Source of the DNA: Noviherbaspirillum sp. Root189
GTDB taxonomy: Bacteria > Pseudomonadota > Gammaproteobacteria > Burkholderiales > Burkholderiaceae_D
Direction of reading: 5' to 3'
Assembly: GCF_001428545.1 (NCBI RefSeq)
Contig: NZ_LMHZ01000036.1
Span: 573-34,274, forward strand
DNA length: 33,702 nucleotides
Part shown: positions 14,375 to 26,220 of the stretch, one piece after another
Layout of the letters: each line of letters opens with the position of its first letter
Position numbering within the stretch: the stretch's first letter is position 1
Translations under genes and position numbers: made by a program
Notes under the pieces: model-generated
The model's input: the letters and a program-made list of their open reading frames with translations, nothing else
Told to the model about the DNA's origin: nothing
The model's database searches: none

Positions 14375-15577
14375 TCAATGACCCAGCTTGATCAGGATGT
14401 CGGACAGCATCGACACCATCTGGTCCAGTTCTTCCTTGGTCACGTTCAGGGACGGCATGAAACGCAGCAGGTCGGGACGCGGCGAATTCAGCAACAGGCC
14501 TACCGGCTCCATGTTGCGGGCGGCTTCCACGATTTGCGGGCCGATATCCTTGCCAAGTTTCAGAGCACGCAGCAAACCTTCACCGCGCTCGCCTTCCAGA
14601 CCATGCTTTTCGCTCAGCTTCAGCAGTTCGCCGCGCAGGTAGGCACCCTTGTCCTTGACGGACTGCAGAAAACCCGGCTTGAGCAACTCGTTGAGCACGG
14701 CAATGCCGACTGCGGTCATGACCGGATTGCCATTGTAGGTACCACCTTGCTCACCGGGTTCAAACACCGAGACTTCCTCGCGTGCCAGCAAGGCAGCCAG
14801 CGGTACGCCACCGCCAATGCCTTTGCCCAAGGTCATGATATCGGGCTCGATGTTTGACAACTGATACGCAAACAATTCGCCTGTCCGTCCCATGCCGGCC
14901 TGTACTTCATCGACGATCAGCAGCATGTTGTGCTTCTTGGTCAATGCACGCAGAGCCTCCATGAATTCGCGTGTAGCGGGCATCACGCCGCTTTCGCCTT
15001 GCACCGGCTCCAGCATGACAGCGACGCTTTTATCGGTGATCAACTTTTCAACGCTGGCAATGTCGTTCAATTCAGCTTTCGGGAAGCCGGGAACCTGGGG
15101 CGCGAACATCGTATCCCAGCCGGACTTGCCGCTGGCTGACATGGTCGCGAGCGTACGGCCATGGAAGCCGTGGTTGAAGGTGATGATTTCATAGCGGCTT
15201 TCGCCGGCTGCATTCTTGTTGACCTTGCCCCATTTGCGTGCGAGCTTGATAGCACCTTCGTTTGCCTCTGCGCCGCTGTTGGCAAAGAATACGCGATCAA
15301 ATACGGAATTGGCGGTCAGCAAGGATGCCAGCACGATGGAAGGTTCGTTATAAAAAGCAGGGGAGGGATTGAGCAGCTTTCCTGCCTGTGACGTAATGGC
15401 GTCGACGATGCATTGCGGCGAATGGCCAAGGCAATTCACTGCCCAGCCTTGCAGGTAATCGAGATAGCGCTTGCCGTTATTGTCCGTCAGCCACATGCCT
15501 TGGCCTTGCGTAAATACGAGTGATGGCCTGCTGGTGATTTGCATGAGGGCGTTGACGTCGTACTGGCTGAATTCCAT
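14375..15577 (-). CDS. argD: Acetylornithine aminotransferase (class III, PLP)
   Basis: Converts N-acetylglutamate semialdehyde to N-acetylornithine in arginine synthesis. The 400-aa protein (E. coli 406) shows [20 protein letters not shown] (about 95-115), [26 protein letters not shown], the cofactor-binding [15 protein letters not shown] (about 210-225) and the PLP lysine in [32 protein letters not shown] is the N terminus I recall for Burkholderiales ArgD. The ATG at 15577 has AGGAG 7 nt upstream; a longer reading to 15622 lacks a ribosome binding site. No arg neighbours, but an unusual leader (15632-15786) precedes it. A related succinylornithine or GABA aminotransferase is possible but less likely. 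Confidence 0.88.
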
Positions 15578-15631
15578 CTCGGGGCTCCTGGAGAAAGTCG
15601 ATGTAAAGTCGATGAGGGTCAAAAATCGGGT

Positions 15632-15665
15632 TCAAAAAAAAAGCCACAGGGCAGACCTGTGGCTT
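15632..15665 (-). terminator. Intrinsic terminator in the argD leader (possible attenuator)
   Basis: On the minus strand AAGCCACAGG (15665-15656), loop TCTGC, CCTGTGGCTT (15650-15641), then a run of nine further T (15640-15632): a textbook terminator, 54 nt before the argD start. It follows the 22-codon reading at 15682-15750 by 16 nt. It could simply end the flavin reductase transcript, but a good promoter lies between that gene and the stem, and no convincing promoter lies between the stem and argD, so conditional readthrough is a real possibility. Confidence 0.88.
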
Positions 15666-15681
15666 AGTGAGCAGCAAACAC

Positions 15682-15750
15682 TTACACGCACGGCTTCCCG
15701 GGTTGAGGCAGCAGGGTACGGCGTCGCAAGGATTTGGCTGTCATATTCAT
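15682..15750 (-). CDS. Putative leaderless Arg-rich leader peptide upstream of argD
   Basis: A 22-codon reading beginning MNMTAKSLRRRTLLPQPGKP and ending CV-stop. Codons 9-11 are CGA CGC CGT, three different arginine codons in tandem. The ATG lies 7 nt after a -10-like hexamer, so transcription would start at or next to the A of ATG, and there is no Shine-Dalgarno, as in leaderless mRNAs. The stop comes 16 nt before a strong intrinsic terminator in the path to argD. Bases around the Arg codons (CTTGCGACGC, 15730-15721) can pair with GCGTGTAAG (15689-15681) allowing one bulge and two G-U pairs. Arginine-sensing attenuation is inference; the peptide could be fortuitous. Confidence 0.45.
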   Translation of the reverse strand: MNMTAKSLRRRTLLPQPGKPCV

Positions 15751-15757
15751 AAAGTCA

Positions 15758-15786
15758 ATGTTAAGACCTTTTGCGCGGTGCGTCAA
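15758..15786 (-). promoter_or_regulatory. Sigma70-like promoter of the argD leader
   Basis: Minus strand: TTGACG (15786-15781), 17-bp spacer, TAACAT (15763-15758), starting 3 nt after the stop codon of the flavin reductase gene. It predicts initiation at about 15752-15750, directly at the ATG of the leader reading. Confidence 0.6.
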
Positions 15787-15789
15787 AAA

Positions 15790-16833
15790 CTATTTCGTTG
15801 TCAAAACACCATCCGCCAGATCAGCCTCGGAAGTGAAGGCATCTGCGTAGAATTCTTCTTCCGGCAATTTGCACTGTCCAACAAAATCCCGCTTCGCCGA
15901 ATCGACCATGACGGGAGCGCCACAGGCATAGACTTGATATCCGGACATATCTGGCAGGTCGGCGATCACTGTCTGGTGCACAAAGCCGGTACGCCCGGTC
16001 CAGCCATCTTCCGGCAAGGCATTGGAAATGACCGGCACATACTTGAAGTTCGGCAGCGTCGCAGCCCATTCTTCACACAGGGCATTCATGTACAGGTCCT
16101 TCGGCCGGCGACCTCCCCAGTACAGCACCATGGGGCGTGTAGTCTTGTTATGAATCGCCTGTTCAACGATGGCCTTGATCGGTGCGAATCCAGTGCCCGA
16201 TGCCAGCAGGATCATCGGTTTTTCGGATTCCTCGCGAAGGAAGAATGTTCCCAGCGGTCCCTCGAAACGCAGGATGTCGCGCTCCTTCATGTTATTAAAT
16301 ACATGGTCGGTGAACACGCCGCCGCTCATGTGGCGAATGTGTAGCGTCAGGTGCTCATCCAGATGCGGCGCATTGGCCATGCTGTAGCTGCGGCGCTTGC
16401 CATCCTTGAGCAGGAATTCAATGTACTGGCCAGCCTTGTACTGAAGACGTTCATTGGCGGGCAGTTGCAGCGACAGAACCATGACGTCGTCGGCAACTTT
16501 GTCGAGCTTTGCTACGCGGGTCGGCAGCTTCTTGATCGGGAACTCGCCTATGCCAAGCACTTCACGCGCTTCAATGACGATGTCCGAACCCGGCATTGCG
16601 CAGCAGAACAGCGACCAGCCTTTTTCTTCGTCCGCGAAGGACAGCGCCTTCTCCTGATGTGCTCGATGTTCAACCGAACCCTCAAGCAGTTTGCCTTTGC
16701 AGCTGCCACATGCCCCGTTCTTGCAACCGTAAGGCAGGCCGACGCCGGCGCGAATGGCCGCCGTCAATACGGTTTCGCCTTCTTCGCATGTGAATTGCCG
16801 ACCACTCGGCTGAACTGTTACTTGGAAAGTCAT
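15790..16833 (-). CDS. 2Fe-2S ferredoxin/FAD/NAD(P) reductase (CDP-6-deoxy-delta-3,4-glucoseen reductase-like)
   Basis: Single-chain electron-transfer flavoprotein, 347 aa. Residues 1-90 are a plant-type 2Fe-2S ferredoxin with Cys37, Cys42, Cys45 (GCKNGACGSCKG) and Cys77. The FAD domain follows, with RRSYSMANAP (about 150), then the NAD(P) domain with LLASGTGFAPIKAIVEQA (about 210), VLYWGGRRPKDLY and YACGAPVMVDSAKRDF near the C terminus. Betaproteobacterial members are usually labelled CDP-6-deoxy-glucoseen reductase, but without deoxysugar genes nearby it is more likely a general reductase or the reductase of an unplaced oxygenase. Its ATG is only 12 nt from the divergent epimerase gene; AGGA sits 4 nt before the start. 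Confidence 0.85.
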   Translation of the reverse strand: MTFQVTVQPSGRQFTCEEGETVLTAAIRAGVGLPYGCKNGACGSCKGKLLEGSVEHRAHQEKALSFADEEKGWSLFCCAMPGSDIVIEAREVLGIGEFPIKKLPTRVAKLDKVADDVMVLSLQLPANERLQYKAGQYIEFLLKDGKRRSYSMANAPHLDEHLTLHIRHMSGGVFTDHVFNNMKERDILRFEGPLGTFFLREESEKPMILLASGTGFAPIKAIVEQAIHNKTTRPMVLYWGGRRPKDLYMNALCEEWAATLPNFKYVPVISNALPEDGWTGRTGFVHQTVIADLPDMSGYQVYACGAPVMVDSAKRDFVGQCKLPEEEFYADAFTSEADLADGVLTTK

Positions 16834-19651: not shown

Positions 19652-19727
19652 TGGTAGGCCGTGCGGGATTCGAACCTGCGACCAACGGATTAAAAGTCCG
19701 CTGCTCTACCAGCTGAGCTAACGACCC
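19652..19727 (-). tRNA. tRNA-Lys (anticodon TTT)
   Basis: A 76-nt cloverleaf on the minus strand starting GGGTCGTTAGCTCAGCTGG, with the anticodon loop CTTTTAA in CGGACTTTTAATCCG, T-arm GCAGGTTCGAATCCCGC and an encoded 3' CCA. The acceptor stem GGGTCGT pairs with ACGGCCT (two G-U). Reading through it gives the SLAQLVEQ-type false peptide well known for tRNA antisense or overlap translations. It has its own consensus promoter and terminator. Confidence 0.97.
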
Positions 19728-26063: not shown

Positions 26064-26077
26064 TTAGGTCCATTTCG

Positions 26078-26181
26078 TCTCACGTAACTGGCGAATGCCG
26101 GGCGCGCAGCTAGTCGCGGTTCGGCTAAAAGGTGGAAATCCACCGGGGAACGTGAGATATCAACAGCCGTTCGCCTGGGCA
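26078..26181 (+). promoter_or_regulatory. ZTP/ZMP riboswitch (pfl motif) controlling glyA
   Basis: Senses the purine intermediate ZMP/ZTP (AICAR phosphates), which build up when 10-formyl-THF is short, and raises expression of one-carbon genes (known for the class). TCTCACGT (26078-26085) pairs perfectly with ACGTGAGA (26150-26157), enclosing the conserved AACTGGCG (26086-26093) and CCACCGGGGAACGTGA region; the 3' domain has CCGTTCGCCTGGGCA (26167-26181), whose CGCC can pair with GGCG for the pseudoknot. An extra internal stem accounts for the 104-nt length. glyA is a common target of the class. Recognised by motif, not by covariance search. Confidence 0.85.
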
Positions 26182-26220
26182 GCCCAAATGGAATGCACGA
26201 CTGAGGCTGCCTGTCTTCTT
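26176..26220 (+). terminator. Riboswitch expression platform: terminator overlapping the aptamer 3' end
   Basis: GGCAGCC (26178-26184) pairs with GGCTGCC (26205-26211), extendable by G-U pairs, and a U-rich TGTCTTCTTTCT follows. The 5' arm contains the conserved GGCA of the aptamer, so ligand binding and terminator formation exclude each other, giving an ON switch. Confidence 0.65.

Follow-up and report, generated by a model that had tools for sequence, protein, structure and literature searches.

How can a bacterium in which the arginine repressor seems to be missing adjust the expression of argD, the gene for acetylornithine transaminase, to its supply of arginine? The question is raised by a locus of Noviherbaspirillum sp. 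Root189, contained in a stretch of 33,702 nucleotides of contig NZ_LMHZ01000036.1 (hereafter, the window). ArgR is the regulator that usually governs arg genes; a search for this protein (PF01316) gave no match in the genome of this strain and one match among 60 genomes, below the cut-off, with the control of the search matching in 9 of 14. Control of argD by ArgR was rejected for this reason, and the essential absence of the repressor where it was searched leads one to expect another arginine sensor. An initial annotation of the window had proposed that such a sensor might be encoded just upstream of argD, as an attenuator with a leaderless leader peptide. That interpretation is supported by the analysis reported here: sequence comparison indicates that the region is very probably a ribosome-mediated transcription attenuator of the trp-like kind, in which translation of a leaderless leader peptide reports the level of charged Arg-tRNA and thereby controls argD.

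Parts of the argD leader

The proposed switch, the gene that it would regulate and the upstream neighbour are all located on the minus strand of the window, as follows.

15790..16833 (-): 2Fe-2S/FAD reductase gene, the upstream neighbour, not part of the switch
15781..15786 (-): -35 hexamer TTGACG, from the promoter scan; TTGACG in 66 of 67 distinct leaders
15758..15763 (-): -10 hexamer TAACAT, from the promoter scan; TAATAT in 34 of 67 leaders
15682..15750 (-): leader-peptide sORF MNMTAKSLRRRTLLPQPGKPCV, 22 codons plus TAA, with a putative leaderless start
15718..15726 (-): tandem Arg codons CGA CGC CGT, codons 9-11 of the sORF, the proposed sensing site
15668..15743 (-): hairpin 1:2, the putative anti-antiterminator, from the predicted fold and covariation
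15686..15694 (-): segment 2, GCCGUGCGU, 5' strand of the candidate antiterminator
15655..15663 (-): segment 3, GCCACAGGU, 3' strand of the candidate antiterminator, made of the terminator 5' arm and the first loop base
15641..15665 (-): intrinsic terminator hairpin 3:4, AAGCCACAGG/CCTGTGGCTT, from the terminator scan
15585..15589 (-): AGGAG, likely ribosome-binding site of argD, from the sequence; AGGAG in most of 20 loci
14375..15577 (-): argD, acetylornithine transaminase (NCBIfam NF002985), the gene proposed as regulated

The two promoter hexamers are separated by a spacer of 17 nt, and 7 nt lie between the -10 and the ATG of the sORF (15750-15748); the TAA (15684-15682) is followed after 16 nt by the terminator stem, a perfect helix of 10 bp running into nine T, with the T-run reaching 15634. 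The argD product matches NF002985 with 737.9 bits, against a cut-off of 568. Every piece listed in the initial annotation, that is the sigma70-like promoter, the ATG, the 22-codon reading with CGA CGC CGT, the stop, the 16-nt interval and the terminator, was found as claimed; its statement that no good promoter lies between terminator and argD also agrees with a scan of positions 15300-16100, which lists no promoter-like site in that interval.

By themselves these parts would carry little weight. The same scan returned two promoter-like sites, against 0.6 expected, and one terminator, against 0.7 expected; when the window's 124-nt leader was shuffled 5000 times with dinucleotides preserved, 13 of the shuffles contained an ATG-started sORF with RRR. 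Since the promoter and terminator scans of the window alone are near chance, the case rests on comparison, and conservation is what lifts the leader parts above chance. Two further elements were noted elsewhere in the window: a ZMP/ZTP riboswitch aptamer at 26074-26187 (+), with 61.5 bits, and a tRNA gene at 19655-19727 (-).

Conservation, linkage to argD and the leader peptide

A blastn search with a query of 301 bases matched 23 of 60 genomes; at loci L021-L023 the match covered the reductase end only, and 20 of the remaining loci were aligned. Sequence comparison of these loci establishes the parts of the leader and their order: promoter, ATG, sORF with two or three tandem Arg codons, stop and terminator are kept in all 20, and insertions at L016 (+3), L017 (+3 twice) and L020 (+9) preserve the reading frame. 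The sORF and its Arg run, on whose presence in related genomes the original proposal had been made to depend, are indeed conserved, and so is the place where the sORF starts.

A covariance model built from the 20 loci (R1) matched 127 of 294 family genomes, belonging to 22 of 44 genera; at least one of these genomes is a doubtful case, since G258 has as its only match the weak locus L118, which has no argD nearby. Among 399 genomes drawn from the order, 12 were matched, six of them from the same family; of the six outside it, L061 and L062 are placed before argD and four lie elsewhere. There is one match per genome as a rule, and one in the genome of Root189; the plasmid collection gave none. 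The matches L063-L066, L112, L117 and L118, weak and with neither argD nor the reductase gene nearby, were discarded as chance terminators.

More distant relatives were considered through a named set of 80 argD loci, the closest named genus being Noviherbaspirillum. In 59 of them a CCAC..GTGG stem comes after a tandem-Arg sORF, whose Arg codons number three in 45 loci, four in 13 and two in one; the four-Arg leaders include those of Ralstonia, Burkholderia, Trinickia and Chitinasiproducens. The element is absent from the other 21, among which are eight loci of Polynucleobacter and locus L204, with only 335 nt upstream. The peptide is MNQALHLRRRRTLLPPGSHAAVC in Ralstonia (L224), MNRIQTELRRRRALPAWEAVG in Trinickia and MHCTAATAGSRRRRLC in Chitinasiproducens, and it begins with MKNFTDMSSPNIARRR in the Undibacterium type; little is common to all lineages beyond the promoter-close ATG, the run of Arg codons and a terminator ahead of argD.

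The strong R1 matches that were fetched are all upstream of argD, except for L054. At L046, L056, L058, L084, L093 and L125, argD follows the element, and the 1.2-1.5 kb upstream contain nothing that matches the reductase. Among 167 element-negative family genomes, 19 were examined: 17 have only distant ArgD-like proteins, the best being 35-44% identical, and two, G018 and G026, carry a close argD orthologue without the element. At the G026 locus (L128), a stretch with long inverted repeats is found between reductase gene and argD, the element being missing. The exception L054 (genome G074; coordinates 1501-1653 and 1701-2126) places the element before a GNAT acetyltransferase gene, where relatives carry argD; behind this gene lies a convergent lpd-like gene, an arrangement also shown by argD in the window.

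This linkage bears on the simplest alternative, in which the terminator merely ends the reductase transcript, argD has a promoter of its own and the sORF is due to chance. Terminators after genes are ordinary, and the terminator-like sites of the region do not exceed the chance level; against this, a promoter and an sORF with frame-keeping indels are conserved between reductase gene and terminator, a change of the upstream gene does not part the element from argD, and at L019, L070 and L085 a gap of 16 nt separates the end of the T-run from the argD ATG. A role of the terminator as a plain reductase 3' end was rejected in view of the argD linkage and these short gaps, and the alternative as a whole is considered very unlikely. 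Indeed, 16 nt leave no room for another promoter, so that a transcription start downstream of the terminator, which the initial annotation had mentioned as an argument against itself, appears implausible in these three relatives.

Features of the leader peptide were compared in a set of 72 leaders (A2), obtained after two spurious matches were dropped and exclusive of L088, L100, the Undibacterium-type and other divergent loci; removal of L089, L097, L099 and L103, in which no in-frame ATG was found, and of one duplicate gave the 67-leader set. In all 67, a distance of 35-37 nt separates the ATG from the first base of the -35, a spacing that would put it at about +1 and suggests a leaderless start: transcription would begin at the A of the ATG or one base before it, and the sORF would be translated from the very 5' end of the RNA.

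All 59 named leaders open the Arg run with CGA, while the codons after it show synonymous CGC/CGT changes. CGA is a rare codon, accounting for 6 of 103 Arg codons in seven coding sequences of the window; its wobble A is paired in the window's own fold and unpaired in the consensus hairpin, so its constancy is not readily explained by pairing, and slow reading of a rare codon would fit. In 10 of 67 leaders the third Arg has given way to His, Cys, Pro or Gln, and a single Arg is left at locus L100. Two further stretches of the Root189 genome, one preceding argC and the other preceding a second argD-like gene, were read by eye, and no tandem-Arg leader was seen there; the protein encoded by the latter gene (G000:C23:232079-233236, minus strand) is 38% identical to ArgD. 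For argF, the stretch covered reached to about 110 nt from the matched gene.

Many leaders share the C-terminal sequence PGxPC[AV]-stop, as would be expected of a nascent-chain arrest peptide in the style of TnaC or SpeFL, binding free arginine or an arginine intermediate instead of reporting Arg-tRNA. However, L068, L092, L101 and L088 stop early, soon after the Arg run, so that the peptide C-terminus is not made and not needed there; the C-termini of the Herbaspirillum, Undibacterium, Ralstonia and Burkholderia forms differ, and the conserved PC codons fall in the candidate antiterminator strand GCCGUGC. An arrest peptide is thus judged improbable, though a little less so than the plain terminator.

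The distance from stop codon to terminator varies little: counted from the first base of the stop codon, CCACAGG lies 22 nt further on in 49 of 67 leaders, and 21-26 nt further on in 61. A perfect intrinsic terminator at a nearly fixed distance from the stop codon is hardly what would be expected if the sORF acted by translation coupling or by Rho, as in Salmonella orf34-speF, where two tandem Arg codons do sense arginine (PMC6386406); this is the least credible of the explanations considered, with a probability close to nil. Attenuation at the intrinsic terminator, governed by the ribosome on the Arg run, remains the preferred reading.

Predicted competing RNA structures

The leader alone is predicted to fold as one long sORF hairpin (1:2), in which the 5' half of the sORF is paired with the sORF 3' end plus the spacer, followed by the terminator (3:4). 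Fold z-scores in six leaders range from -3.1 to -5.3, the terminator contributing part of this stability. Covariation in helix 1:2 is established by the comparison of the 67 leaders: the score is 0.200 versus 0.163 +- 0.007 after shuffling (reached in 0 of 500 shuffles; kinship of the sequences, which shuffling leaves in place, inflates scores of this kind), 63 cells are changed on both sides versus 36 in shuffles, and 74.8% of cells are paired versus 71.3%. With the first 20 loci only, the score for 1:2 plus terminator was 0.108 versus 0.100, equalled in 39 of 500 shuffles. The pairing CTTGCGACGC/GCGTGTAAG, which the initial annotation had thought would be opened by a stalled ribosome, belongs to this covarying hairpin.

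Nine of the ten pairs of the terminator stem are invariant in 20 loci, which could be explained by a need of its arms to pair with two partners. The same near invariance, together with the leader's own promoter, its strong terminator with a long T-run and the L054 element standing without argD, might also be taken to mean that the terminated leader acts mainly in trans, either through the RNA itself, as an sRNA, or through a small protein rich in Arg. Attenuation would in any case yield a short RNA, though, and the close linkage to argD, the presence as a rule of a single copy per genome and the possible double pairing just mentioned argue against a trans-acting product; the subthreshold Rfam match to suhB, 19.1 bits against a cut-off of 41, is chance-like. 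The probability left to this explanation is very small, comparable to that of a plain terminator.

For the attenuator, the initial annotation had declared the lack of a convincing antiterminator to be its weak point. A candidate can now be proposed, helix 2:3, in which GCCGUG of the 3' arm of hairpin 1:2 pairs with CACAGG of the terminator 5' arm. With a ribosome placed on the Arg codons, the terminator arm pairs with a CCGTG-like element in 44 of 67 minimum-energy folds and is held upstream in some way in 58 of 67. Of the cells of helix 2:3, 91.7% can pair, compared with 17-46% for slid partners; RNAalifold, applied to the exposed segments alone, predicts five 2:3 pairs, with only -1.7 kcal/mol. 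The single covarying pair is the end pair (GC 46, GU 8, AU 5, broken 7), and there is no excess of 2:3 pairs changed on both sides, 1 versus 1.3 in shuffles (444 of 500). The exact CCGTG is absent in 17 of 72 leaders, and in the Undibacterium type a different sequence, GCCUGGG, is predicted to pair with CCACAGGC. Other possible antiterminator strands, the first codons of the sORF and a CCNGCUG loop, were dropped by eye, their bases not being kept.

These structures suggest how the switch may operate. When Arg-tRNA is plentiful, the ribosome would reach the stop codon and cover segment 2, so that terminator 3:4 would form and argD would be off; if the sORF were not translated, hairpin 1:2 would form and the terminator would again be allowed to fold. 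When Arg-tRNA is scarce, the ribosome would stall on CGA-CGC-CGT and cover segment 1; segment 2 (GCCGUG) would be freed to pair with the terminator 5' arm (CACAGG) as this emerges, 2:3 would win kinetically over 3:4, and RNA polymerase, with the terminator blocked, would continue into argD, giving a response to arginine. Transcripts arriving from the reductase gene would have no leaderless sORF start and should be terminated.

Modelling of the folds with the ribosome at successive positions is in line with this scheme. In the 67 leaders, the mean chance that the terminator 5' arm is held upstream is 0.10 in the ribosome-free RNA and 0.62-0.69 when the P-site lies within a range that opens two codons ahead of the first Arg codon and closes five codons beyond it; once the ribosome is at the stop, the value is about 0.1. 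A control on the 2:3 energy gave 0.64 observed versus 0.51 when the upstream sequence had been shuffled, and the 90th percentile of a leader's own shuffles was exceeded in 9 of 67 cases, roughly the number expected by chance; the position dependence would thus come mainly from hairpin 1:2 and the placement of the stop. Helix 2:3 is a candidate antiterminator, but its energetic strength, taken by itself, is weak and in the model hardly exceeds that of shuffles.

The same modelled switch was obtained for 11 of 12 Undibacterium-type leaders, L104 failing with a value of 0.85 already in the ribosome-free state; it fails also for L110, and for L061 and L062 the value is still elevated when the ribosome has reached the stop (0.61 and 0.99). 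Ralstonia leaders mostly give about 0.6 as free RNA; their values are 0.59-0.85 with the ribosome at Arg and 0.23-0.28 with it at the stop, and L224 has 0.70 free versus 0.59 at Arg. In these calculations the L103 row was unused, and L115, L116 and L121 are comparable only at Arg and at the stop.

Proposed arginine sensing in the family and known attenuators

Extended to Burkholderiaceae in the wide sense, which here include Noviherbaspirillum, Herbaspirillum, Undibacterium, Ralstonia, Burkholderia and others, the comparison points to a more general scheme that is probable, with less confidence than the attenuator itself. These bacteria, which as far as searched have no ArgR, would gauge arginine by a leaderless, ribosome-read argD attenuator; the tandem Arg run starting with the rare CGA and the logic of the switch would have remained constant, while the RNA was rebuilt in each lineage with different antiterminator strands. 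If this is true, the leader would show how a seemingly ArgR-less bacterial group senses arginine; it would also offer a natural leaderless leader peptide for studying leaderless initiation coupled to attenuation, and could serve directly to report how far Arg-tRNA is charged.

At the leader no Rfam family reaches its gathering score, and no attenuator of this type for argD or arginine biosynthesis was met in searches of open-licence papers. Amino-acid attenuation itself is textbook knowledge. The argD leader shares with the trp/his/leu-type attenuators of Proteobacteria the tandem codons for the end product in the leader peptide, a proposed competition between the structures 1:2, 2:3 and 3:4, and an intrinsic terminator before a biosynthetic gene; it would differ from them in that arginine is sensed and the gene downstream is argD. 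A leaderless attenuator is reportedly represented by trpL of Sinorhizobium meliloti. There, as in the argD leader, the start of the peptide is expected at the first base of the transcript, whereas the amino acid is tryptophan instead of arginine, and lineage and gene are different.

The attenuators named in a 2013 survey are those for His, Leu, Thr, Trp, Ile/Val and Phe, arginine not being among them (PMC3766115), and the main text of another paper, PMC2965389, mentions neither argD nor arginine. The carA leader of Pseudomonas also precedes an arginine-related gene, includes a leader peptide in P. aeruginosa and may be subject to attenuation; this is, however, ascribed to pyrimidines (PMC4997734). 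The closest arginine-sensing leader met is orf34-speF of Salmonella (DUF2618), in which two consecutive Arg codons serve as the sensor; Rho and RNase G take part there and the regulated gene is a polyamine gene (PMC6386406), whereas the argD leader has an intrinsic terminator, a biosynthetic gene and a different peptide.
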